This document shows, one piece after another, positions 42,994 through 55,240 of a stretch of DNA of 64,000 bases; the stretch's first letter is position 1; every line of letters starts with the position of its first letter. Position numbers and translations under genes: made by a program. The stretch spans positions 620,001 through 684,000 of the forward strand of contig NZ_JACCBA010000001.1 of the NCBI RefSeq assembly GCF_013409365.1. The letters run 5' to 3'. The stretch is from Actinomadura luteofluorescens (GTDB lineage: Bacteria; Actinomycetota; Actinomycetes; Streptosporangiales; Streptosporangiaceae). The notes beneath the pieces are model-generated. The model searched no databases and was not told where the DNA came from. It worked only from the letters and a program-made list of their open reading frames with translations.

Positions 42994-43170
42994 GCAGACG
43001 ACCAACAGAGACGCCGCAACCCCAGCCCAGCCGCCGAAGTGTCCAACGTCCTTAGAGGACGAAAGACTTCGGGCTTCTCACCTGTCTTCTGTCCAGCAGC
43101 CCGGCGAGGCTCCCGCGTCCGTGGGCGGGCAAGCGCGCTCTTCGCGGGCCACCCTGGGTAGGGAGTGAGC

Positions 43171-44136
43171 ATGGACGACCTGACAGGTGGGGAGCCGGGT
43201 CCCGACATGAGCGGGCTCGGGGTGGCGGCGGTCGCGCGTCGTCTGGGCGTGGCGCCCTCCACCCTGCGCACTTGGGATCACCACTACGGCGTAGGCCCGA
43301 CGGGCGGCGGCTCTGAAAGGCAGCACCGCTACACCCCGGCCGACGTTGCCCGGCTGGAGACCATGCAGCAGATGATCTCCGCGGGAGCGCCGCCGGCGGA
43401 GGCGGCCGAGGCGGTCCTGCGGACGCCGCACGGACAGGAGCAGGAACCACGGAGCCACGACGCGGCCGCCGCACACGGTGCTCTGGACATCTCTGCCATC
43501 GAGCACGCCGCTTCGCTAGCCTCGCGGATCCGGAACCTCGCGGATGCGACCATGGCGCTGGACGAGCTCGTGATGACCGGCATCCTGGAATCAGCCCTGC
43601 GGCAAGAGGGCGTCACTGCGACGTGGGAACAGGTGATCGCACCGGTCCTCGTCGACCTCGGAAGCAGGCATTCGACAACCGGCGAGTACATAGAGGTGGA
43701 ACACCTTCTGTCGGCCGTGGTGTCGCGCTGTCTCCTTGCAGTGACGTCGCCTCAGGCGCAGTTTTCAGCAGGCCGGCTTCGCAGTCCCGTGGTGCTGGCA
43801 TGCGCCCCGGACGAGGAGCACACCCTGCCGCTCCTCGTGCTGGCGGCCGCCCTGGCCGAGACCGGCGCGGCGAGACTCATGCTGGGTGCGCGGGTGCCGG
43901 CATCGGCCCTGGCAGCCGCGGTCAGACGGTCTGGGGCGCGCGCGGCGTTCGTGTGGTCGCAGACGTCCGAGACCGGTGACCCGTCCTGGCTCACCGACCT
44001 GGCCACCACGAATCCCGCGCTGCAGGTGGTGGTCGGGGGCCCGGGCTGGGCCCGTGACCGGCTCCCGCCCGGGGTGCCCTTCGCGTCATCGGTGTCCATG
44101 GCGCTCGGAACGTTGCTCGCAGCAGCCTCCCACTGA
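43171..44136 (+). CDS. MerR-family regulator with altered B12-binding (CarH/LitR-like) sensor
   Basis: This 321-aa regulator has a MerR HTH at 16-75 (GVAAVARRLGVAPSTLRTWD, HRYTPADVARLETMQQMI). A helical bundle at 110-190 and a Rossmann-like domain at 205-321 follow the CarH/LitR plan. In the photoreceptor family the bundle carries Wx9EH; here it is His167-x9-Glu177-His178. The cobalamin motif ExHxxG appears as EEHTLP (215-220): the ligand His217 is kept and the Gly is Pro. B12 binding may persist without classic photochemistry. The ATG at 43171 has GGGAG five bases before it. Confidence 0.85.
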   Translation: MDDLTGGEPGPDMSGLGVAAVARRLGVAPSTLRTWDHHYGVGPTGGGSERQHRYTPADVARLETMQQMISAGAPPAEAAEAVLRTPHGQEQEPRSHDAAAAHGALDISAIEHAASLASRIRNLADATMALDELVMTGILESALRQEGVTATWEQVIAPVLVDLGSRHSTTGEYIEVEHLLSAVVSRCLLAVTSPQAQFSAGRLRSPVVLACAPDEEHTLPLLVLAAALAETGAARLMLGARVPASALAAAVRRSGARAAFVWSQTSETGDPSWLTDLATTNPALQVVVGGPGWARDRLPPGVPFASSVSMALGTLLAAASH

Positions 44137-44461: not shown

Positions 44462-45907
44462 TCAGCCGCGGTAGGCCTCGAGGAGGCGGAGCCAGACTTC
44501 GCTGATGGACGGGAAGCACGGGACGGCGTGCCAGAGCCGGGCGACGGGTACCTGTGCGGCGACGGCGACGGTGGCCGAGTGGATCAGTTCCTCGACGCCG
44601 GGCCCGACCATGGTGACGCCGAGCAGGTGGCCGTGGTCCTCGTCGACGACCATGCGGGCGCGCCCGGTGTAGCCGTCGGCGTACAGCCCGGCCCCCGCCA
44701 CCTTCCGCCCGGGATCGACGTCGACCACGCGGATCCGGTGCCCGGCGCGTTCGGCCTGGTCGGCGGTCAGGCCAACCGAGCCGGCCGGCGGGTCGCAGAA
44801 GAACACCTGCGGGACCGCGCGGTGGTCGGCGGTGACCGCGTGGGCACCCCACGGCGCGGTGTCGAGGGGTTGCCCCGCGGCGCGAGCGGCGATCGCGGCG
44901 CCGGCGATGCGAGCCTGGTACTTGCCCTGGTGGGTGAGCAGTGCGTGATGGTTGACGTCGCCGAGGGCGTACAGCCAGCCATCGCCGAGAGCGCGCACGG
45001 CGCAGGTGTCGTCGACGTCCAGCCACGAGCCGGGCTCCAGGCCGACTGTCTGCAGGCCGATGTCGTCGGTCAGGGGCCGGCGGCCAGTGGCGAACAGCAC
45101 CTCATCGGCCTCCAGGTCGGCACCGTCTCCGAGGCTCAGAGTGACCGGCCCGGCGCCGCCCGGGCGGCGTGTCCCGGTGACGGTGGTACCGATCCGCACG
45201 TCGATCCCGGCCTGGGTGAACGCGCGGGCGATCATCTCCCCGGCGAAGGGCTCCATCCGGGGCAGCAGTCCGTCCGTCCGGGCGAGCAGCGTGACGGACG
45301 AGCCCAGCCCCTGCCAGGCACTGGCCATCTCCACTCCGACTCCACCGCCGCCGACCACGGCGAGCCGTTCGGGGACGGTGTGCGCGTCGGTGGCCTCCCG
45401 GTTGGTCCAGGGACGCGCCTCGGCCAGGCCGGGCAGCTCTGGCAGGACCGGGCGGCTCCCGGTGCAGATCGCCACCGCCTGTCGGGCGGTCAGGGTGACC
45501 GTCGCTCCGTCCGGTGTCTCCACCGCGACCCGGCGGGCTCCGTCGAGCCGTCCGTGCCCGCGGATCAGGTCGGCGCCGATGCTCTTGAGAAAGTTCGCCT
45601 GCCCGTCGTCGGTCCAGTCGCTCACCCACTCGTCCCGGCGGGCGAACACGGCGGAGGCGTCCACGTGCCCGGTCACGGCCTGGCGTGCTCCGGCGACGCG
45701 GCGGGCGTCGGCGGCCGCCACGACCGGCCGCAGCATCGCCTTGCTGGGGATGCACGCCCAGTACGAGCACTCACCCCCGACCAGCTCCCGCTCCACCGCC
45801 GCCACGCTGAGCCCGGCGGCACGGGCGCGGTCGGCGACGGTCTGCCCGATCGGCCCCGTGCCGATCACGATCACGTCGTAGGTCTCTTCCGCTGGTGACC
45901 TGTTCAT
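44462..45907 (-). CDS. Lipoamide-dehydrogenase-like FAD/NAD(P) disulfide oxidoreductase
   Basis: This 481-aa class I flavoprotein disulfide reductase has the FAD motif DVIVIGTGPIGQTVADRARA, redox-active CSYWAC (Cys47 and Cys52, followed by IPSKAML), NAD(P) loop VVGGGGVGVEMASAWQGLG, and the second FAD strand YALGDVNHHALLTHQGKYQ. The C-terminal base region is HAVPCFPSISEVWLRLLE, a lengthened form of the HPT..E motif. The six-residue CxxxxC is as in dihydrolipoamide dehydrogenase. It is the last gene of the operon that also encodes a lipoyl carrier, so it could reoxidise or reduce that lipoyl group. Its ATG overlaps the VOC stop. Confidence 0.9.
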   Translation of the reverse strand: MNRSPAEETYDVIVIGTGPIGQTVADRARAAGLSVAAVERELVGGECSYWACIPSKAMLRPVVAAADARRVAGARQAVTGHVDASAVFARRDEWVSDWTDDGQANFLKSIGADLIRGHGRLDGARRVAVETPDGATVTLTARQAVAICTGSRPVLPELPGLAEARPWTNREATDAHTVPERLAVVGGGGVGVEMASAWQGLGSSVTLLARTDGLLPRMEPFAGEMIARAFTQAGIDVRIGTTVTGTRRPGGAGPVTLSLGDGADLEADEVLFATGRRPLTDDIGLQTVGLEPGSWLDVDDTCAVRALGDGWLYALGDVNHHALLTHQGKYQARIAGAAIAARAAGQPLDTAPWGAHAVTADHRAVPQVFFCDPPAGSVGLTADQAERAGHRIRVVDVDPGRKVAGAGLYADGYTGRARMVVDEDHGHLLGVTMVGPGVEELIHSATVAVAAQVPVARLWHAVPCFPSISEVWLRLLEAYRG

Positions 45908-46392
45908 CGTGTCATCCCTTCTCTCGGCTCGGTGTGATGTGGCTCCGCGCCGCCCGCGGCTTGGGACGGGCGGAAGCCGATCTCCTGGATCGCCCAGGCG
46001 TTGCCGTCCGGGTCGGCGAAGTCGGCGAGGCTGGCGTAATCGCGGCGTTCAGGGTCGGTCCCCGGCCGCCAATCGCCTTTCCAGTCGTCGATAGGTGACT
46101 TGTGCCGGATGGCGCTGATCTCGACGCCGCGTTCGGTGAGCTCGCGGTGGGCGGCTTCGATGTCGGTGACGGCCAGGTAGGTGGCACGTGCGGATCCGGG
46201 TGCCGCGTCGGTGAGGCCGACACCGATCTGGACCGAGCAGGACGATCCGGGCGGCGTGAGCTGGACGACGCGGAAGCCGGGGGCGGGGTGGTAGTCGACG
46301 TCGAGGGTGAAGCCGGCCCGCCGGATGTAGAAGGCCGCCGCCCGGTCGACGTCGCCGACGGACAGGGTGACGACCTGGAGCCGGTAGTCCAT
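45904..46392 (-). CDS. VOC (glyoxalase/dioxygenase-fold) family protein
   Basis: This 162-aa protein is formed of two beta-alpha-beta-beta-beta halves: VVTLSVGDVDRAAAFYIRRA and ATYLAVTDIEAAHRELTERG, ending FADPDGNAWAIQEI, where the Glu is the usual metal ligand. Members are metalloenzymes or binding proteins for glyoxals, antibiotics and thiol conjugates. The start codon overlaps the GcvH stop, and the stop overlaps the flavoprotein start, so it is tightly coupled to both. Confidence 0.9.
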   Translation of the reverse strand: MDYRLQVVTLSVGDVDRAAAFYIRRAGFTLDVDYHPAPGFRVVQLTPPGSSCSVQIGVGLTDAAPGSARATYLAVTDIEAAHRELTERGVEISAIRHKSPIDDWKGDWRPGTDPERRDYASLADFADPDGNAWAIQEIGFRPSQAAGGAEPHHTEPREGMTR

Positions 46393-46790
46393 CAGGCGCC
46401 TGCCAGGTCGCGGTAGGCGCGGGCGTCCATCAGGGCGGCGAGTCGCCCGTCCAGCGTCGCCGGATCGGTTTCGACCTCGAACATCCAGCCCCGGCCGTAC
46501 GGGTCGGTGTTGACGAGTTCGGGCATGCGGGGAAGGTCGTCGTTGCGGGTACGGACCGTTCCCGTGAGGGGCGTGATCAGGTCGCTGACGCTCTTGACCG
46601 ATTCGATGTCGCCGCAGGCCTCACCCGCCTCGACCGTGTCACCGGGCCCGGGCAGGGTCACGGCGACCACGTCACCGAGGGACTGCTGGGCGTAGTCGGT
46701 CACTCCGACCCGGACCAGGCCGGTGCCGGGGTCGGGCCGGACCCAGAGATGATCGTCGCTGTACTTCAGATCGGCCGGGATGTCGGACAT
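46392..46790 (-). CDS. GcvH-like lipoyl carrier protein (orphan)
   Basis: This 132-aa protein has the glycine cleavage H fold: KYSDDHLWVRPD, GVTDYAQQSLGDVVAVTLPG and GDIESVKSVSDLITPLTGTV, with the lipoylated Lys66 in ESVKSVSD and a downstream ELVNTDPYGRGWMFEVE. No gcvP, gcvT or lipoate ligase is nearby, so it is not in a glycine cleavage operon. GGGAGG lies four bases before the ATG at 46790. The frame stays open upstream to an ATG at 46955 that has its own GAGGA, so a form with 55 extra residues is possible. A partnership with the flavoprotein two genes on is inferred. Confidence 0.9.
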   Translation of the reverse strand: MSDIPADLKYSDDHLWVRPDPGTGLVRVGVTDYAQQSLGDVVAVTLPGPGDTVEAGEACGDIESVKSVSDLITPLTGTVRTRNDDLPRMPELVNTDPYGRGWMFEVETDPATLDGRLAALMDARAYRDLAGA

Positions 46791-46967
46791 CGTTCCTCCC
46801 GTCGAAGCCCGGCGGAGTGCCAGGCGTGCCGCGGCGGTCACGGCGTGCCGGATCAAGGCGTTGATGCTGGTCTGTCCTGGTGTCCTGGGGACGAGGACGG
46901 CGGGGACCGGGCCGTCGCCCGGGCTTACGGCGAAAGGCTTCTCGTCGATCGTCATGGTGTTCCTCGC

Positions 46968-48698
46968 CTACATGTCCAGGACGATGTCGGTGCGGGGCCT
47001 GGCGCAGCAGATGAGCACCTGCCCGTCGGGCGGGGGTTCCAGCGGGTCCGGCGCGTAGGCGATGTCGCCGGAGAGCAGGGGCGTGGCGCAGGTGTGGCAC
47101 ACGCCGGTACGGCAGCTCCAGCGGGTGGGGACATCGCAGGCGTCGGCGAGGTCGAGCACGCTGCCTCGTCCGGTCGCGAACGGCACGGAGATACCGCTGC
47201 GGGCGAAGACGACCTCCGGGCCGGTTCCGGCGGGCCCGGGCGGCGGGTGGGGCGGCCTGCGGCGCTGCCCGGTGAGCCCGGGATTGGTCGAGGGCAGCGC
47301 CCCGAACAGTTCGGTGCGGATGCGACCGGCGTCGAGGCCGAGGCCGGTGAGAGCCTCGCGAATGTCGGTCATGAACGGGGCCGGCCCGCAGATGTACGCG
47401 CTGGCGTCAGCCGGTACGGCCAGCGCCCTCAGCGTGTCTTCGGTAAGGCGTCCAGGCGCGGCGTGGGCGAGGCTCCGCTCGGCGGGTGTGGCGGCGCTGT
47501 AGAAGACGTGCTGGTGGACGTGCGGCAGAGAGGCGAGCAGAGCCTGCGCCTCGGCGGCCAGCGCATGCTCGCGGGGTCCCCGGGCACCGTGCAGCCACCA
47601 GATGTCGCGGTCACTGCGAGCGGTGGCGAGTGCGTGCAGCATGGACAACACCGGCGTGACGCCGATCCCGGCGGAGATGAGCAGGACCGGGCCGGTGCCA
47701 CTGTCGAGGACGAAGTCGCCCCGAGGCGCCGCCACATCGAGGACCGCACCCGCTCGTACGCCGCCGGTCAGATAGCGGCTGACGAGGCCGTGCGGCTCCC
47801 GTTTGACGCTGATCCGGTAGGTGCCGGCATCGGGAGCGGACGACAGCGAGTAGCTGCGCACCGGAGCGGGCGGGCCCTCGCCGGGGATCCGCAGCGTCAG
47901 ATACTGACCGGCCCGGGCGGCGGGCAGCGGGCTTCCGTCCGGCGCGGCCAGGTAGATCGACGACACGGCGCCGGTCTCGGGGACCACTTCGGTCACGCGA
48001 AGCGGCCGGAACCCCGTCCATCCCGGGACGGTGTCCTGGGCGGCGGCGGCCAGCAGGTCCCGGAACGATCCCTGCCAGCCGGGGCTCAGCGCCGGAATCC
48101 GAGACGCGTCGAGCAGCCTGGCGGGGTCGCGACCGGGCAGGTAGAGCAGCGCGTCGGCCTCGGCCACGGTCACCCCGTACGGACCGGTCCGGGTCTTGAT
48201 GATCTGGTCCCCCGCCTGGATCCGCCCCTCGTGGACGACCCGCATGTAGAAGCCGGGCCGGTGGTGGGCGACCAGCAACGCGGGCAGTTCCGGCTCGCCC
48301 GTCCGAAGGCCCACCCGGTAGCAGGTGACCCGTGGCTGGGTGACCTCGAACTCGGCCGTGCCGATCCGGTACCGGTCACCGATGCAGACCTCGTCGTCCG
48401 GCAGGCCGTCGACGGAGAGGTTCTCCCCGAAATGGCCGTAGCCGAAGTCGTCCCGGCCGAAGTAGCGCCGCCAGTACTCTTGCGACTGGATCTGATAGAC
48501 GAGTACGGCCCGCTGCTCACCGCCGTGCCCGTCCCTGTCGCCTTGACCGTCGCCGTCGATGTTCAGCCGGCGCACCGTCGCCGGCCCGGCCACCGCGTGT
48601 TTCCACACGCCGGTGTGGACGGTCCTGCCCTGCCAGGACACGTCCTTCGGCATGCCGACGTTCACCGAGAGCAGCACCGGCCTGGCGGTGCCCGTCAT
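46968..48698 (-). CDS. MOSC - FAD/NAD reductase - 2Fe-2S ferredoxin fusion
   Basis: This 576-aa three-part protein has residues 1-220 as a YiiM-like MOSC domain (YGHFGENLSVDGLPDDEV, QPRVTCYRVGLR with the molybdenum-cofactor Cys, plus the 3-alpha segment). Residues 230-460 are a ferredoxin-NADP reductase-like domain (PVRSYSLSSAPD FAD motif, LLISAGIGVTPVLSMLHALA, YICGPAPFM). The end is a plant-type 2Fe-2S ferredoxin with CRTGVCHTC and a final ICCARP. It would carry electrons from NAD(P)H to the Mo centre or act on N-hydroxylated or sulfur substrates. The ATG at 48698 overlaps the DUF427 stop. Confidence 0.92.
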   Translation of the reverse strand: MTGTARPVLLSVNVGMPKDVSWQGRTVHTGVWKHAVAGPATVRRLNIDGDGQGDRDGHGGEQRAVLVYQIQSQEYWRRYFGRDDFGYGHFGENLSVDGLPDDEVCIGDRYRIGTAEFEVTQPRVTCYRVGLRTGEPELPALLVAHHRPGFYMRVVHEGRIQAGDQIIKTRTGPYGVTVAEADALLYLPGRDPARLLDASRIPALSPGWQGSFRDLLAAAAQDTVPGWTGFRPLRVTEVVPETGAVSSIYLAAPDGSPLPAARAGQYLTLRIPGEGPPAPVRSYSLSSAPDAGTYRISVKREPHGLVSRYLTGGVRAGAVLDVAAPRGDFVLDSGTGPVLLISAGIGVTPVLSMLHALATARSDRDIWWLHGARGPREHALAAEAQALLASLPHVHQHVFYSAATPAERSLAHAAPGRLTEDTLRALAVPADASAYICGPAPFMTDIREALTGLGLDAGRIRTELFGALPSTNPGLTGQRRRPPHPPPGPAGTGPEVVFARSGISVPFATGRGSVLDLADACDVPTRWSCRTGVCHTCATPLLSGDIAYAPDPLEPPPDGQVLICCARPRTDIVLDM

Positions 48699-49564
48699 GG
48701 CTGCCCGCCGGAACCCGCCTCGTCCAGGGTGAGGTCGCGGTCGACGCCGTGCGGAAGGACGGTCTGGCCGGGCTCGAGCCTCAGCCGGGTGCCGTCCAGC
48801 TCCATCTCGGTCTTGTCCGGTTCGAAGGAGACCATGCCGGAGATGCGCCGCACCTCGGTCCAGGCGTCCTCGTATGACCACGCCGCCTTGCGGGCGTCGG
48901 CGATGTTGTAGTAGCTGCACAGGCCTTTGTAGGGGCAGAAGGTCTGGCCCTTCGCCGGAGTCAGCGCGTCGGCGGCGATGTCGGCGCGGGGAACGTACCA
49001 GCGGGGCGCGAACCCCGACTCGTAGAGGACCAGCGGGCGCCTGGTGTCGGCGATGACCCGCTCCTGGTGCCGCACGACGAGATGGCGGCTGGTCTGGCGG
49101 ATGTCGATGCGGTGGTAGGGGTCGGCGGCGTGCCCGACGATCCGCTCGTCCTCTTCGTAGAAGGCGTCCATGGCCCGCCACGCGAAGGCCACCCGTCCCT
49201 TCAGGCCGCCAGCGTGGCCGGGCAGGTCGGTGTGCCGCCAGGCCGCGCGCGGCACGCTGTGCGCGCCCGCTCGCACGGTGTACCAGGAGGTTGGGCCCAG
49301 GTCGCGGTGGTGCGTGACGTGCTCGACGGGCTCCAGCGCGCCGTCGGCGATGTCGCCGAGCGGGAAGTACGCGACCGGGTAGCGGCCGGGCTCGTGCAGC
49401 AGCACGACGTCCTCGCTGTCGGCGATCCAGACACCGCCGTACCGGACCCGCATCCGCCGGCGCAGCGGCTCGGCGAACAGCAGTCGCTCCGGGAGCGGGC
49501 CGGGGACCAGGAAGTGGCCGATCGCGCCGAGGCCGAGCGGGCCCTGCTGCCAGGAAAGACCCAT
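48695..49564 (-). CDS. Tandem DUF427 protein
   Basis: This 289-aa protein has two DUF427 copies. The first is near 36-125 (VRYGGVWIADSEDVVLLHEP ... YPVAYFPLGDIADGAL). The second is near 160-255 (VVRHQERVIADTRRPLVLYE ... TFCPYKGLCSYYNIADA), and only the second keeps the Cys-Pro-Tyr-Lys-Gly...Cys pattern. Biochemical function is unknown; it is common in actinomycetes beside oxidoreductases. It starts 31 bases after the SDR gene and is coupled to the MOSC fusion by a four-base overlap. Confidence 0.88.
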   Translation of the reverse strand: MGLSWQQGPLGLGAIGHFLVPGPLPERLLFAEPLRRRMRVRYGGVWIADSEDVVLLHEPGRYPVAYFPLGDIADGALEPVEHVTHHRDLGPTSWYTVRAGAHSVPRAAWRHTDLPGHAGGLKGRVAFAWRAMDAFYEEDERIVGHAADPYHRIDIRQTSRHLVVRHQERVIADTRRPLVLYESGFAPRWYVPRADIAADALTPAKGQTFCPYKGLCSYYNIADARKAAWSYEDAWTEVRRISGMVSFEPDKTEMELDGTRLRLEPGQTVLPHGVDRDLTLDEAGSGGQP

Positions 49565-49595
49565 CGTCAGGCTCCTTTCCGGTAGTTCGGTGATG

Positions 49596-50315
49596 TCAGG
49601 AAAGTGGTTCGCCGCCGTCGATGTGCAGGGTCTGGCCGGTGAGGAAGGTGCTGGTCATGGCGTACAGGACGGCGTCGGCGACGTCGGCGGCGGTGCCGAC
49701 GCGCCGGGCCGGGTTACGGGCGCTCATCTCGGCGAAGTAGTCCGCCTTGCCTTGTTCGCCCAAGGCGTCCCAGGCTCCGGTGTCGATCACGCCGGGAGAG
49801 ACGGCGTTCACCCTGATGGGGGCCAGTTCCAGTGCGAGGGAACGGGCGAGGACGTCGGCGGCGCCGTTGGTGACGGCCACCCCGAGCGTGCCGGCCGTGA
49901 TCTTCACCGCGGCGACGCCGGAGAAGACGACGAACGATCCCGCCTCGGTCATCCGGGGGGCCAGGTGCTTGGCCAGCATGAGCGGGCCGATCACCTTCGT
50001 GTCGAACGACAGCCGGACGGCCTCCCGGTCGAGGTCGGCCAGCCGTCCCCGGGCTCGCGCCGACGCGGTGGACACCACATGGTCGATGCCGCCGAGCCGT
50101 TCGCCCAGTGCGGCGATCGAGGAATCATCGGTCACGTCGACGGTCTCGGTCCTGATGGCGGGCTCCCCGGCGTAGGCAGCGGCCAGGGTGTCCTTGTCGC
50201 GGCCGGCGGCGATGACCTGTGCGCCCGCGTCGCGGGCGGCCACCGCGACCGCGCGGGCGATTCCACCGGCCCGTCCCACCACCAGCACGCTCTGACCGTC
50301 CAGCAGTCCGGTCAC
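49596..50315 (-). CDS. Atypical SDR-family protein without YxxxK
   Basis: This 239-aa Rossmann protein has nucleotide loop VVGRAGGIARAVAVAARDAG and C-terminal SDR features (LALELAPIRVNAVSPGVIDT, GQTLHIDGG). The catalytic Tyr-Lys are missing: the region reads GVAVTNGAADVLARSLALEL where YxxxK should be. Some SDR subgroups are naturally of this kind. The start overlaps the hydrolase stop by four bases. It is a member of the 51.2-44.5 kb operon. Confidence 0.85.
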   Translation of the reverse strand: MTGLLDGQSVLVVGRAGGIARAVAVAARDAGAQVIAAGRDKDTLAAAYAGEPAIRTETVDVTDDSSIAALGERLGGIDHVVSTASARARGRLADLDREAVRLSFDTKVIGPLMLAKHLAPRMTEAGSFVVFSGVAAVKITAGTLGVAVTNGAADVLARSLALELAPIRVNAVSPGVIDTGAWDALGEQGKADYFAEMSARNPARRVGTAADVADAVLYAMTSTFLTGQTLHIDGGEPLS

Positions 50316-51178
50316 GGCAACGTCCTGCCCAGGAACCCGCGGATGTGGGCCGCGGCGACGTCCAGGTGGCTTTCCAGCAGGAAGTGGCCTGCGTCCAGCA
50401 GGTGGATCTCAGCGCCGGGCGCGTCCTTCGCGAACGCCAGCGCGCCCTCGGGCCGGAAGATCTCGTCGCCCCGGCCCCACACCGCCAGCACCGGCACCCC
50501 GCTGGCCCGGAGCCAGGCGTGCAACTTCGGATACAGCGGCAGATTGCCGGCGTAGTCGGCGAGCAGCGCCAACTGCACCAGATCATTGCCCGGCCGGGAC
50601 ACCTGGGCGAAGTCGTGGTTCCAGGTATCCGGGCTGACCAGGGTCTCATCGGGCACGCCGTGCAGGTACTGCCAACGAATCGCCTCAAGAGTCAGCGCCT
50701 GCCGTACGCCCGCCTCGGTCTGCGGGTTCTGGTCGCGCCAGTACTCCCTCACCGGCTTCCAGAACTCCTCCGCGAAACCCGCTTCGTAGCCGTTGCCGCT
50801 CTGGGTGATGACCGCGGTGACCGCATCCGGATTTCCCAGCGCGAGCCGCCAGCCCACCGGCGCCCCGTAGTCCTGGACGTACAGTGCGTACCGGTCGGCC
50901 CCGAGCTGGTCCAGCAGCTCCTCGGTCAGCCCGGCCAGGGCGTCGAAGGTGTAGTCGAACTCGTCGGCGGCGGGCGCGTCGGACAGGCCGAACCCGAGAT
51001 GGTCGGGGGCGATCACGCGATAGCGGTCGGCCAGCGGCGGGATCAGATGGCGGAACATGAAAGAGCTGGTCGGGAAGCCGTGCAGCAGCACTACGGCAGG
51101 CGCCGCGGCCGGACCCGCCTCCCGGTAGAACAGCCGCCGACCGTTGACGGTCGCGTAGCGGTGATGGACGGTTGTCAT
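50312..51178 (-). CDS. Alpha/beta-hydrolase with Asp nucleophile (haloalkane dehalogenase/epoxide hydrolase-like)
   Basis: This 288-aa enzyme has HGFPTSSFMFRHLIPPLA, then VQDYGAPVG with Asp103 at the nucleophile elbow, Asp in WGRGDEIFRP and catalytic His in LDAGHFLLESH. Asp nucleophiles mark dehalogenases, epoxide hydrolases and fluoroacetate hydrolases. The ATG at 51178 is chosen as nearest the conserved start. It is the first gene of the leftward redox operon, divergent from the LuxR gene 84 bp away. Confidence 0.92.
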   Translation of the reverse strand: MTTVHHRYATVNGRRLFYREAGPAAAPAVVLLHGFPTSSFMFRHLIPPLADRYRVIAPDHLGFGLSDAPAADEFDYTFDALAGLTEELLDQLGADRYALYVQDYGAPVGWRLALGNPDAVTAVITQSGNGYEAGFAEEFWKPVREYWRDQNPQTEAGVRQALTLEAIRWQYLHGVPDETLVSPDTWNHDFAQVSRPGNDLVQLALLADYAGNLPLYPKLHAWLRASGVPVLAVWGRGDEIFRPEGALAFAKDAPGAEIHLLDAGHFLLESHLDVAAAHIRGFLGRTLP

Positions 51179-51262: not shown

Positions 51263-54040
51263 GTGTCAGCCGTGCATCTGCCCGGAGGCGACGCGGACTT
51301 GACCGGCCGTCACGCCGAATGCGGAGCGCTCGACCAGCTGGTCGCGGCGATCGTGCAGGTCGGTGAAAGCCGGGCGCTGGTGCTGCATGGCGAGGCCGGT
51401 GTGGGCAAGACGGCCCTGCTCGACTACCTGGCCGAGCACGCCCCGGGCTGCCGGGTGGCGCGCGCCGCCGGCGTCCAGTCGGAGATGGAACTGGCGTTCG
51501 CCGGCCTGCACCAGTTGTGCGCGCCCATGCTGGACCGGCTGGAGGCCCTGCCGCCGCCGCAGCGCGATGGGCTGCGCACCGCGTTCGGCCTGAACACCGG
51601 GCCGCCGCCGGACCGGTTCCTGATCGGCCTTGCCGTACTCAGCCTGCTGTCCCAGGTCGCCGAGGAACGGCCGCTGGTGTGCCTGGTCGATGACGAGCAG
51701 TGGCTCGACCAGGCCTCGGCGCAGGCCCTGGCGTTCGCCGCCCGGCGCCTCGGATCGGAATCGGTCGGCCTGGTGTTCGCGGCCCGGACGCCGAGCGTCG
51801 ACCTCGCGGGGCTGCCGGAGCTGGCGGTCACCGGCCTGCGGGACGAGGGCGCGCGCACGCTGCTGGATTCGGTACTGACCGGGCCGATCGACGGGCGGAT
51901 CAGGGATCAGATCATCGCCGAGACGCGCGGCAACCCGCTGGCACTCCTGGAGCTGCCGCGGGGCCTGACCGCGGCGGAACTGGCCGGCGGATTCGGCCTC
52001 CCCGGCCCGGCACCGCTCGCGGGCAGCATCGAGGAAGGCTTCCGGCGGCGCATCGGCGCGCTTCCGCACCAGACCCGGCGGCTACTGTCACTCGCGGCGG
52101 CCGACCCGACCGGCGATCCGGCGCTGGTCTGGAGAGCGGCCGTCAGGCTCGGGATCGGCGCCGGCGCGGCGGCACCCGCGGCCGACGCCGGCCTGGCCGA
52201 GCTCGGCACCCGCGTGCGGTTCTGCCATCCGCTGGCCCGCTCCGCCGCCTACCATTCGGCGTCCACCCACGACAGGCAGCGGGCGCACCAGGCCCTGGCC
52301 GAAGTCACCGACCAGCAGCTCGATCCCGACCGGCGCGCCTGGCACCAGGCGCGAGCGGCCCCCGGCCCGGACGAGGACATCGCGACCGAGCTGGAACGCT
52401 CGGCCGGGCGAGCGCTCGCGCGCGGCGGCCTCGCCGCGGCGGCCGCGTTCCTGAACCAGGCGGCCGCACTCACGCTCGATCCGGCGCGACGAGCCGAGCG
52501 GGCGCTGGCCGCCGCCCAAGCCAAGATCCAGGCGGGTGCGCTCGACGCGGCGCGGGATCTGCTGGCCATGGCGGAGTCCGGGCCGCTCGGCCGCTACCAG
52601 CGGGCGAGTATCGACCTGATGCGAGCCCAGCTCGCGTTCATCACCAGCCGAGGGGCGCAGGCCCCGCCGCTCCTGCTGCGGGCGGCCGAGAAACTCGAAC
52701 CCGTCGACCCTGAGCTGTCCCGCGCGACGTACCTCGACGCGATCTCGGCCGCGATCTTCACCGGTCGGCTGGCCGAACCCGGCAGCGGCATCCTGGAGGT
52801 GGCCCGCCAGGCCCGTACGGCTCCGCCGGCAGCACACGCCCCGCGCGCACCCGACCTGCTCCTGGACGGCCTGACCGCACATTTCAACGACGGGTATGCG
52901 GCAGGTTTCCCGCTGCTGCGCGAGTCCCTGGCCGTCTTCGGTGACGGCATGTCGGCCGAAGAGGAACTGCACTGGCTGTGGCTGGCGTCCACCTCGGCGG
53001 CGCTGCGAGTCTGGGACTACGACCGCTGGGACGCGCTCTCCGTCCGCCATGTCCGGCTGGCCCGCGACACCGGAGCGCTCAGCGAGCTTCCACTCGCCCT
53101 GACCTCCCGTACCTACGCCCTGCTGCTCGCCGGCGATCTGACGGCCGCGGTGACGCTGACCGACGAGATCCAGACGGTCAAAGAGGCGACCGGAAGCGGG
53201 CTCGCGCCCTACGGCGCCTTCGGCCTGGCCGCGCTCCGCGGCGATGAGGCCAGAGCACTGGCCCTGATCGACGCCACCGTGGAAGACGCGGCCCGGCGCG
53301 GGGAGGGAGTCGGGATCACCTTCGCCGAATGGGCGAACGCGATGCTCAACAACGGCCTCGGCCGCTACGACAAGGCCGCCGCGGCGGCGCGACGCGCCTG
53401 CGCCTTCGACGACGACCTGGGCTCGCTGGTCTGGGCGGTACCCGAACTCATCGAGGCCGCCGCCCGCACCGGCATGGCCGAAGCCGCGGCGTGGGCCGGC
53501 GACCGTCTCGAGGAGATGGCCGGCGCCACCGACACCGACTGGGGACTCGGGATTCTGGCCCGCTCGCGCGCGCTGCTGACCGAGGGTGAGACGGCCGACC
53601 GCCTGTACCGCGAGTCGATCACCCGCCTCGGCAAGACCCGGCTCCGCCCCGACCTCGCCCGCGCCCACCTCCTGTACGGGGAATGGCTCCGCCGCCGACG
53701 CCGCCGCCTCGACGCACGCGAGCAACTGCGCACCGCCCACGACATGCTCGAAACCATGGGCATGGCGGGATTCGCCGAACGGGCACGACGCGAACTCCGG
53801 GCCACCGGCGCGACCGCCCACCAACGCGCCCGGCCCACCAGGCAGCAGGAACTGACCGCCCAAGAGGCCCAGATCGCCCGCCTGGCCCGCGACGGGCTGT
53901 CCAACCCCGAGATCGGCACCCGCCTCTACATCAGCGCGCACACCGTCCAGTACCACCTGCGAAAGGTCTTCACCAAGCTCGGCATCACCTCCCGCGGCCA
54001 ACTCGACCGCGTCCTGCCCAGCGACCCCCGATCGCAATGA
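51263..54040 (+). CDS. Large LuxR-family (LAL-type) ATPase regulator
   Basis: This 925-aa regulator has an AAA-type ATPase with Walker A HGEAGVGKT (42-50) and Walker B PLVCLVDDEQWLD (137-149). A long TPR-like helical middle follows (about 350-850; Ala/Leu-rich helices such as ERALAAAQAKIQAGALDAAR). The C-terminal LuxR HTH is LTAQEAQIARLARDGLSNPE then ISAHTVQYHLRKVFTKLGI. The start is the GTG at 51263 or a second GTG at 51272. LAL proteins bind ATP and an inducer, then activate nearby operons. The divergent redox operon is the obvious target. Confidence 0.94.
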   Translation: MSAVHLPGGDADLTGRHAECGALDQLVAAIVQVGESRALVLHGEAGVGKTALLDYLAEHAPGCRVARAAGVQSEMELAFAGLHQLCAPMLDRLEALPPPQRDGLRTAFGLNTGPPPDRFLIGLAVLSLLSQVAEERPLVCLVDDEQWLDQASAQALAFAARRLGSESVGLVFAARTPSVDLAGLPELAVTGLRDEGARTLLDSVLTGPIDGRIRDQIIAETRGNPLALLELPRGLTAAELAGGFGLPGPAPLAGSIEEGFRRRIGALPHQTRRLLSLAAADPTGDPALVWRAAVRLGIGAGAAAPAADAGLAELGTRVRFCHPLARSAAYHSASTHDRQRAHQALAEVTDQQLDPDRRAWHQARAAPGPDEDIATELERSAGRALARGGLAAAAAFLNQAAALTLDPARRAERALAAAQAKIQAGALDAARDLLAMAESGPLGRYQRASIDLMRAQLAFITSRGAQAPPLLLRAAEKLEPVDPELSRATYLDAISAAIFTGRLAEPGSGILEVARQARTAPPAAHAPRAPDLLLDGLTAHFNDGYAAGFPLLRESLAVFGDGMSAEEELHWLWLASTSAALRVWDYDRWDALSVRHVRLARDTGALSELPLALTSRTYALLLAGDLTAAVTLTDEIQTVKEATGSGLAPYGAFGLAALRGDEARALALIDATVEDAARRGEGVGITFAEWANAMLNNGLGRYDKAAAAARRACAFDDDLGSLVWAVPELIEAAARTGMAEAAAWAGDRLEEMAGATDTDWGLGILARSRALLTEGETADRLYRESITRLGKTRLRPDLARAHLLYGEWLRRRRRRLDAREQLRTAHDMLETMGMAGFAERARRELRATGATAHQRARPTRQQELTAQEAQIARLARDGLSNPEIGTRLYISAHTVQYHLRKVFTKLGITSRGQLDRVLPSDPRSQ

Positions 54041-54217: not shown

Positions 54218-55240
54218 GTGAAGAAGATCGGTTTTCTCTCGTTCGGTCACTGGAGTGACACCGCGGGGTCGCGGACCCGGTCGGCGGCGGACGCCCTGCT
54301 GCAGTCGGTCGATCTCGCCGTGGCCGCGGAGGAACTGGGCGCCGACGGCGCCTACTTCCGTGTGCACCACTTCGCCAGGCAGCTGGCCTCGCCCTTTCCG
54401 CTGCTCTCCGCGATCGGCGCGAAGACCTCGCGCATCGAGATCGGCACGGGCGTGATCGACATGCGTTACGAGAACCCGATGTACTTCGCCGAGGACGCCG
54501 GGGCCGCCGACCTGATCTCCGGTGGGCGGTTGCAGCTCGGCATCAGCCGGGGATCACCGGAACAGGTCGTCGACGGGTGGCGGTACTTCGGGTACGAGCC
54601 GTCCGAGGGCGACACCGATGCCGACATGGCGCGCATGCACACCGAGGTCCTGCTCACGGTGCTGCAGGGCAGAGGCTTCGCCCAGCCGAACCCGCGGCCG
54701 ATGTTCCCCAACCCGCCAGGGCTCCTGCGCGTCGAACCGCACTCCGAGGGACTGCGCGACCGCATCTGGTGGGGTTCGGGTTCGAACGCCACCAGCGTGT
54801 GGGCGGGCCAGCTGGGCATGAACCTGCAAAGCTCCACGCTCAAGGACGACGAGACCGGCGAGCCGCTGCACGTCCAGCAGCGCAAGCAGATCGAGGCCTA
54901 CCGGCAGGCGTGGAAGGACGCCGGGCACCAACGCGAGCCGCGCGTGTCGGTCAGCCGCAGCATCTTCGCGCTGACCAGCGATCTCGACCGTGCCTACTTC
55001 GGCCGCGACGCCGACTCTGACGACCACATCGGGATGATCGACGAGAACACCAGGGCCATCTTCGGGCGCTCCTACGCGGCCGAGCCGGACGTGCTGGTCA
55101 AGCAGCTCGCGGGCGACGAGGCCATCCAGGCCGCGGACACACTCCTGCTCACGGTCCCCAACCAGCTCGGCGTGGACTACAACGCACACGTCCTGGAGAA
55201 CATCCTGACCCACGTCGCACCCGAACTCGGCTGGCGCTGA
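54218..55240 (+). CDS. Luciferase-like (LLM class) flavin-dependent monooxygenase
   Basis: This 340-aa TIM-barrel monooxygenase begins KKIGFLSFGHW and continues with SVDLAVAAEELGADGAYFRV, HHFARQL, IEIGTGVIDM, and SGGRLQLGISRGSPEQVVDG, the bacterial-luciferase pattern. It would use FMNH2 or F420H2 supplied by a reductase. The GTG at 54218 (or 54212) is the likely start; the longer open frame adds 36 Arg/Trp-rich residues without family similarity. It stands alone and converges with the MFS gene. Confidence 0.9.
   Translation: MKKIGFLSFGHWSDTAGSRTRSAADALLQSVDLAVAAEELGADGAYFRVHHFARQLASPFPLLSAIGAKTSRIEIGTGVIDMRYENPMYFAEDAGAADLISGGRLQLGISRGSPEQVVDGWRYFGYEPSEGDTDADMARMHTEVLLTVLQGRGFAQPNPRPMFPNPPGLLRVEPHSEGLRDRIWWGSGSNATSVWAGQLGMNLQSSTLKDDETGEPLHVQQRKQIEAYRQAWKDAGHQREPRVSVSRSIFALTSDLDRAYFGRDADSDDHIGMIDENTRAIFGRSYAAEPDVLVKQLAGDEAIQAADTLLLTVPNQLGVDYNAHVLENILTHVAPELGWR

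Follow-up and report, generated by a model that had tools for sequence, protein, structure and literature searches.

We analyzed a 64,000-nucleotide stretch of the Actinomadura luteofluorescens genome (here called the window), which lies at 0.62-0.68 Mb of a single 9.62-Mb contig, and in it a compact operon that carries an additional gene for GcvH, the lipoyl-bearing H protein of glycine cleavage. On the minus strand, seven open reading frames (ORFs) with good coding signal fill the whole span from 44462 to 51178 and encode, in the direction of reading, an alpha/beta hydrolase (ABH), a short-chain dehydrogenase/reductase (SDR)-fold protein, a double DUF427 protein, a MOSC-reductase-ferredoxin fusion, GcvH, a VOC protein and an FAD flavoprotein (Table 1). 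Intergenic gaps run from -4 to +31 bases (ABH to SDR, -4; SDR to DUF427, 31; DUF427 to MOSC, -4; MOSC to GcvH, 12, or 177 with the start at 46790; GcvH to VOC, -1; VOC to flavoprotein, -4), and a scan for promoters and terminators found none. Families were assigned with Pfam and NCBIfam for nine proteins, i.e., the seven of the operon and two neighbours. An earlier note, made from the sequence alone, had described seven tightly packed genes, named the kinds of their products and pointed out a CxxxxC motif in the flavoprotein and the lipoyl lysine in GcvH. These descriptions held: the packing in the ORFs, coding signal and gaps; the families in the profile matches, together with Asp121 of the hydrolase; the motif as Cys47 and Cys52; and the lysine as Lys66 of a protein that reaches the TIGR00527 cut-off. 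The comparisons below suggest that the swinging lipoyl arm of GcvH has been put to a new use in a detoxification-type cluster.

The cluster GcvH and its linkage

The cluster GcvH scored 128.0 bits against the NCBIfam equivalog model TIGR00527 (cut-off 115.85) and also exceeded the cut-off of NF002270. Its lipoyl lysine, within an ESxK motif, is Lys66 when numbered from the ATG at 46790; this start has GGGAGG directly 5' of it, while the alternative in-frame ATG at 46955 has GGCGAGG, a stretch resembling a ribosome site, 5' of it. We aligned 86 GcvH rows (two pairs being repeats of one gene), of which 84 served as comparators for two cluster-borne proteins, the one in the window and the one in genome G400, which belongs to another actinomycete family. 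Exactly one of the 33 columns conserved in at least 85% of the comparators is altered in both cluster GcvHs. This column, which we matched to the E. coli numbering of PMC7733448, is Glu-14: it holds Glu in 80/84 comparators, Leu in the window and His in G400. Two further conserved columns are changed in the G400 protein alone and none in the window protein alone. The four comparators without Glu (L083 to L086) come from one Gemmatimonadaceae and three archaeal contigs, and two of them also lack the lysine. At the Glu-12 position both cluster GcvHs have Asp, as do 12 comparators. In simulations described in the available part of PMC7733448, Glu-12 and Glu-14 of the E. coli H protein hydrogen-bond the aminomethyl nitrogen; a literature search returned nothing direct on Glu14/Asp67.

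The earlier note had also reported gcvP as absent, and for the window this was confirmed by a search of the whole genome, in which all matches to the GDC-P profile lay elsewhere, at 6.88, 8.26 and 9.36 Mb. The last of these is a full-length GcvP; the two weaker GDC-P-family matches are at G000:C1:6880382-6881710 and 8261890-8263191 (G000 being the window genome). A canonical gcvH is located at 6.21 Mb, with gcvT-like and glyA-like genes adjoining it, as judged by eye. We then surveyed PF01597 matches in 25 genomes selected for their cluster genes; 16 combined completeness of 90% or more with contamination of 5% or less, and nine did not. Two GcvH copies were found only in the window genome and in G400, and in both the extra copy was the one in the cluster. 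The two cluster copies scored 114.3 and 113.1 bits, and the 25 other matches 130.9-152.0 bits.

Close matches to the window GcvH are rare. They were confined to its own genome within the genus (1/65 genomes at 1e-40) and the family (1/341 at 1e-42), and were found in 3/345 genomes of the order at 1e-37 and 32/394 of the class at 1e-38, the scans of family, order and class having scored part of the first-look candidates. Among the 29 loci of the class scan outside the window genome, each with flanks of at most 1.5 kb, a single one (L171, in G400) has an adjoining DUF427 gene. A larger stretch of G400 (L200, 19.5 kb) contains relatives of the LuxR-family regulator next to the operon (68% identity), the MOSC fusion (58%), VOC (60%), DUF427 (68%), GcvH (52%) and ABH (70%), with GcvH 31 bases after DUF427 and four transporter-like genes (by eye) in the same stretch. 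By our own arithmetic, a second GcvH would land by chance no more than 1 kb from a single-copy DUF427 gene in this 7.16-Mb genome with a probability of ~3 in 10,000, or ~1 in 100 after allowing for G400 having been picked from 29 loci. GcvH was in 0/18 flavoprotein stretches and 0/40 MOSC stretches; that it has no linkage to the cluster outside the window was rejected on the G400 locus from the class scan.

Nine other GcvH stretches had a near-full gcvP in reach in six cases, an edge fragment in one and none in two. A scan of named genomes by six short words gave 29 GcvH loci (best 55% identity), of which 21 had gcvP and none had other cluster genes, and a plasmid search returned 159 matching records, none covering more than 80% of the query and, among the matches listed, none above 50.4% identity. 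Two side observations concern G400: its ABH gene (L200:5602-6481) matches in two overlapping frames and therefore looks frame-broken, and L200:3013-4407 encodes another protein of disulfide-oxidoreductase fold (32% identity, GGTCPNVGC motif, C-terminal THPSSTE stretch), 5.5 kb from the G400 GcvH and beyond the transporter-like genes and ABH.

Could the extra copy be a spare H protein, ordinary if fast-evolving, that works in glycine cleavage or lipoate handling, was caught in a mobile cluster and serves the GcvP and GcvT of the host? The two cut-offs passed, the retention of 32/33 conserved columns in the window copy (Lys66 included), a host genome with GcvP, a gcvT-like gene and two lipoamide dehydrogenases, and an origin within the host family that phylogenetic tests did not reject would all be expected of such a protein. 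It is less easily squared with the presence of GcvH in the same cluster in two separate genomes and with the loss of Glu-14 in both, and we consider it a tentative explanation, possible but on the unlikely side.

The core cassette in other genomes

The MOSC fusion occurs in 52/341 genomes of the family, its own included (E <= 1e-110). Stretches around 40 other matches were fetched, some of them on short contigs, and 13 contained at least one companion gene (DUF427 in eight, SDR in seven, ABH in five, VOC in five, LuxR in three). Neither GcvH nor the flavoprotein was present in any of the 40, and in all fetched loci except the window and G400 the MOSC gene occurs without GcvH. DUF427 was found in 9/221 genomes of the class, the window genome included, and in 1/22 genomes of the G400 family, namely G400 itself. 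At the 18 DUF427 loci other than the window we counted MOSC 14 times, ABH nine, SDR seven, the flavoprotein six, VOC five, LuxR four and GcvH once; since MOSC had led to eight of these loci and GcvH to one, the counts for these two genes are biased upward. The nine loci fetched through DUF427 itself (L195, L197, L219-L225) had MOSC in five, the flavoprotein in six, ABH in five and GcvH in none.

In five mycobacteria-like genomes, recognised by eye from panB/glnA-type neighbours, a flavoprotein relative (64-74% identity), DUF427 and ABH share one stretch, with MOSC in three of the five and SDR in two. On a Mycolicibacterium arabiense plasmid, DUF427, VOC and the flavoprotein are consecutive annotated genes. 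As controls, we used 13 stretches that centre on paralogues of the flavoprotein (57-65% identity; L039-L051), none of which had other cluster genes, and 15 stretches around less similar MOSC fusions (L141-L155), where VOC was present in one and no companion in the rest. Judged by gene content, the core is a widespread, reshuffled actinomycete gene set to which GcvH is an optional addition. Of the conservation of neighbourhood that the earlier note had named as a check, the recurrence of the core set in actinomycetes stands, and GcvH itself recurs at one other DUF427 locus, that of G400. Of 21 papers on DUF427, none concerned this cluster, judged by titles and abstract openings, and none of the 20 matches listed out of 237 combined DUF427 with GcvH, MOSC or lipoyl; four of those listed pair GcvH with MOSC and, from their titles, appear to be broad surveys of proteomes or genomes. 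As a separate observation, on a Caballeronia plasmid (L197:9001-10558) a DUF427 protein represented by its first half (70% identity) precedes a partial match to the MOSC reductase, apparently a transfer between phyla that has since decayed.

The flavoprotein and the other cluster proteins

Table 1. Features of the operon and the adjoining regulator gene, in window coordinates
Feature	Position	Strand	Basis
Alpha/beta hydrolase (ABH), Asp nucleophile, haloalkane-dehalogenase/epoxide-hydrolase-like	50312..51178	-	Abhydrolase match; longer ORF start 51232
SDR-fold protein without Y-x3-K motif	49596..50315	-	SDR match; PRK07041-like
Double DUF427 protein (PF04248, two stretches), beta-tent fold, invariant C210PYKG	48695..49564	-	Pfam, alignment, model
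Fusion of MOSC, YiiM 3-alpha, FAD/NAD reductase and 2Fe-2S ferredoxin	46968..48698	-	PF03473, PF03475 and FAD/NAD/2Fe-2S matches
Cluster GcvH, 132 aa, lipoyl Lys66, Leu15 replacing E. coli Glu-14	46392..46790	-	TIGR00527, alignment
Upstream extension of the GcvH ORF, in frame, 55 codons	46791..46955	-	ORF calls; leader, extension or remnant gene
VOC (glyoxalase/dioxygenase superfamily) protein	45904..46392	-	PF00903; eight further aligned rows
FAD disulfide-oxidoreductase-fold protein, C47-x4-C52, Phe465 replacing catalytic His, Glu470 kept	44462..45907	-	Pyr_redox match
Large LuxR-family regulator (AAA and LuxR HTH), divergent from the operon	51263..54040	+	Pfam

The flavoprotein has the fold of a disulfide oxidoreductase, and its best matches in the PDB were lipoamide dehydrogenases first (TM 0.8-0.9), with mercuric reductases also among them. 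Against TIGR01350, the NCBIfam lipoamide dehydrogenase model, it scored 264.8 with a cut-off of 408.8. The host genome has eight matches to this model, of which two exceed the cut-off and the operon flavoprotein ranks sixth. The catalytic His of lipoamide dehydrogenase acts in acid-base chemistry. In the operon flavoprotein, Phe465 occupies its place in the C-terminal HPT..E motif and Glu470 is kept; of the eight host matches, the two above the cut-off have the His and the six below lack it. Phe was found in 9/9 rows of the nearest group (window, L038, L195, L199, L220-L224) and Tyr or Phe in more distant paralogues, with His in 0/31 aligned rows. The flavoprotein was accordingly rejected as the lipoamide dehydrogenase of the operon, on its score, on Phe465 and on the presence of two genuine ones elsewhere.

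These results bear on the cycle proposed in the earlier note, in which the lipoyl dithiol of GcvH would be reduced or oxidised by the flavoprotein of the operon, with the bound group as the target of the MOSC protein. A common operon, a lipoamide-dehydrogenase-like fold and intact redox cysteines speak for this cycle, whereas the missed cut-off and the Phe shared by the whole nearest group speak against it, as does the distribution of the flavoprotein, which occurs with DUF427 but without GcvH at six loci and is not in the 19.5-kb GcvH-bearing stretch of G400, the only part of that genome searched for it. The proposed cycling was thus not borne out, and we think it improbable. Apart from this, the flavoprotein is found near ABH in G031. 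Relatives of it were also present in three Streptomyces plasmid stretches: one, in Streptomyces tendae, has a cluster gene, VOC, next to the relative, one had no annotation, and in one (L196) the relative, of 69% identity, is accompanied by other genes and several transposase genes with no cluster gene.

The MOSC fusion matches both PF03473 and PF03475, i.e., the MOSC and YiiM 3-alpha domains, and its Cys126 is conserved in 45/45 rows, as are the ferredoxin cysteines (the G400 protein not being among the rows); a role for the MOSC cysteine is described in the accessible part of PMC5818509. YiiM-like fusions of MOSC, 3-alpha, flavin and 2Fe-2S domains are mentioned, from InterPro, in the portion of PMC10637980 available to us. 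The window protein has the same kinds of domain, with no difference seen against what that portion gives, and looks like a member of this group. Public records name such fusions "MOSC and FAD-binding oxidoreductase domain-containing protein", and our search for a fusion of the MOSC domain with a ferredoxin reductase returned no paper.

In the double DUF427 protein, Cys210 is invariant (16/16 rows). Its structural model is modest (pLDDT 68.7) and confirms the fold only, the best fold match being 3djm; the part of PMC4287342 that we could consult describes DUF427 as a beta-tent fold without zinc. The hydrolase has an Asp/His/acid triad and remains below the NCBIfam cut-offs for haloalkane dehalogenases (best 106.5 vs 241). 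In the numbering of the longer ORF, D121 is present in 14/14 rows and H283 and D256 in 13/14, the exception being the frame-broken gene of L200. The SDR-fold protein scored 218.5 bits against PRK07041, below the cut-off of 257. Classical SDR enzymes have a Tyr and a Lys in a Y-x3-K motif as their catalytic pair; the motif was absent anywhere in the 10/10 rows, which were aligned without a classical SDR, and the protein is conserved across clusters all the same.

A proposed carrier role and its relation to known systems

Our preferred reading, to which we assign a probability of about one half, is that a detoxification-type cassette took up a GcvH that has become specialised for a task other than glycine cleavage and would act as a lipoyl thiol carrier reduced by a host dehydrogenase. 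In such a scheme the locus would be one version of a cassette that handles reactive small molecules. The MOSC fusion, with domains and cofactor residues in place, would pass electrons from NAD(P)H through FAD and the 2Fe-2S center to a molybdenum cofactor and, as judged from its family, reduce N-oxygenated compounds. The hydrolase, whose triad is intact, might open epoxides, halides or similar electrophiles by way of an Asp-ester intermediate. Electrons could flow from NAD(P)H to Cys47 and Cys52 of the flavoprotein; since it lacks the His for acid-base chemistry, we propose a target other than an ordinary disulfide. The VOC, double DUF427 and SDR-fold proteins may bind or convert intermediates. 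The second GcvH would be the protein-bound dithiol carrier for these enzymes, kept reduced by the genuine lipoamide dehydrogenases of the cell, and because it retains the lipoyl lysine and lacks Glu-14 we propose that it has left glycine cleavage. The earlier description of an orphan lipoyl carrier gains support here from the second gcvH copy in the genome, the kept Lys66, the lost Glu-14 and the same gene set in the genome of another family.

Several points weigh against this reading. Only two loci bear GcvH, and G400 itself was found through a GcvH search. GcvH is in 0/17 DUF427 loci found by other routes, a second GcvH is in 0/23 other genomes of the PF01597 survey, and no gene turned up whose occurrence is restricted to GcvH-bearing loci. 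The cassette is loose, as 27/40 MOSC stretches lack any companion. The cluster GcvH still scores above the GcvH equivalog cut-off, and since Glu-14 was replaced by Leu in one copy and His in the other, the change may be a relaxation. Descent is likewise equivocal. A tree of all 86 rows places the two cluster GcvHs as sisters (97/95), and this support drops to 80/90 when 56 rows are used (78% of bootstrap trees), both branches being long. The two are 51% identical to each other and each is nearer to some canonical GcvHs (up to 58% identity for the window copy and 54% for that of G400), and they have rare residues in common no more than other pairs do. Grouping the window copy with the canonical genes of its genus was rejected only marginally (p 0.037) and with those of the host family not at all (p 0.20), while grouping the G400 copy with the canonical genes of its own family gave p 0.06. 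Common descent of the pair is therefore suggestive but not settled; a single origin and recruitment on two occasions would each point to a link between GcvH and the cluster.

Decay of a GcvH copy that has no present role and is held by chance in both genomes seems to us a poor account: the long branches and the uncertain start with its 55-codon extension might fit it, but the frame is intact with a coding signal and tight spacing, the conserved residues are kept and the same cluster is seen twice. Least probable is that lipoyl-GcvH replaces a small thiol (such as coenzyme M or mycothiol), its arm capturing an electrophile that cassette enzymes convert and the Phe-type flavoprotein releases by reductive C-S cleavage, as in 2-ketopropyl-CoM oxidoreductase/carboxylase (2-KPCC); if true, this would amount to a line of detoxification based on a protein-bound thiol. 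It is opposed by the lack of the catalytic pair in the SDR-fold protein and by a flavoprotein that is found at loci lacking GcvH and is missing from the G400 stretch. 2-KPCC has the disulfide-oxidoreductase fold and CxxxxC, with Phe in place of the catalytic His and His in place of the partner Glu. The window flavoprotein resembles it in Phe465 but differs in keeping Glu470, and no coenzyme-M gene was recognised among the nine scanned proteins. 2-KPCC is listed among structures like dihydrolipoamide dehydrogenase in the available part of PMC6947548, and a literature search gave nothing direct on its Phe.

For the preferred role as a thiol carrier, a close parallel is GcvH-L of the SirTM-macrodomain operon in Staphylococcus and Streptococcus, as far as the consulted part of PMC4518038 describes it. 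GcvH-L, too, is a second, non-canonical GcvH that is separate from glycine cleavage and shares its operon with oxidoreductases; the operon is tied to oxidative stress, and its flavoprotein OYE binds GcvH-L only when the latter is lipoylated (PMC4518038). It differs in having the LplA2 ligase, SirTM and a macrodomain protein, none of which was among the nine proteins scanned here, and in its partner families. We propose that the cluster GcvH works like GcvH-L without being a member of the SirTM system. Few lipoyl proteins stand outside the classical complexes (those compared here are GcvH-L and LbpA), and the cluster GcvH would add another setting. Against NF045810, which we take to cover the LbpA kind, it scored 40.2 with a cut-off of 150. 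LbpA of sHdr sulfur oxidation resembles our proposal in being a lipoyl protein of the GcvH kind that serves as a carrier in a process other than glycine cleavage; in the part of PMC6067878 at hand, it mostly comes with two additional conserved cysteines, with hdr genes and with a ligase of its own. By comparison, the window GcvH has one cysteine (Cys59), and no hdr families were found among the nine scanned proteins. Independent of the carrier, the analysis delineates a gene set of DUF427, MOSC, hydrolase and flavoprotein that recurs around DUF427, a domain of unknown function.

The regulator that diverges from the operon has relatives of 61-68% identity at three other loci (L120, L121 and L123) and in G400 (L200). 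On the other side, a gene for a MerR-family regulator at 43165-44136, with weak matches to B12-binding domains (CarH-like, below cut-off), is convergent with the flavoprotein gene. Just beyond the LuxR gene lies a called gene at 54218-55240, the start of which appears luciferase-like by eye.

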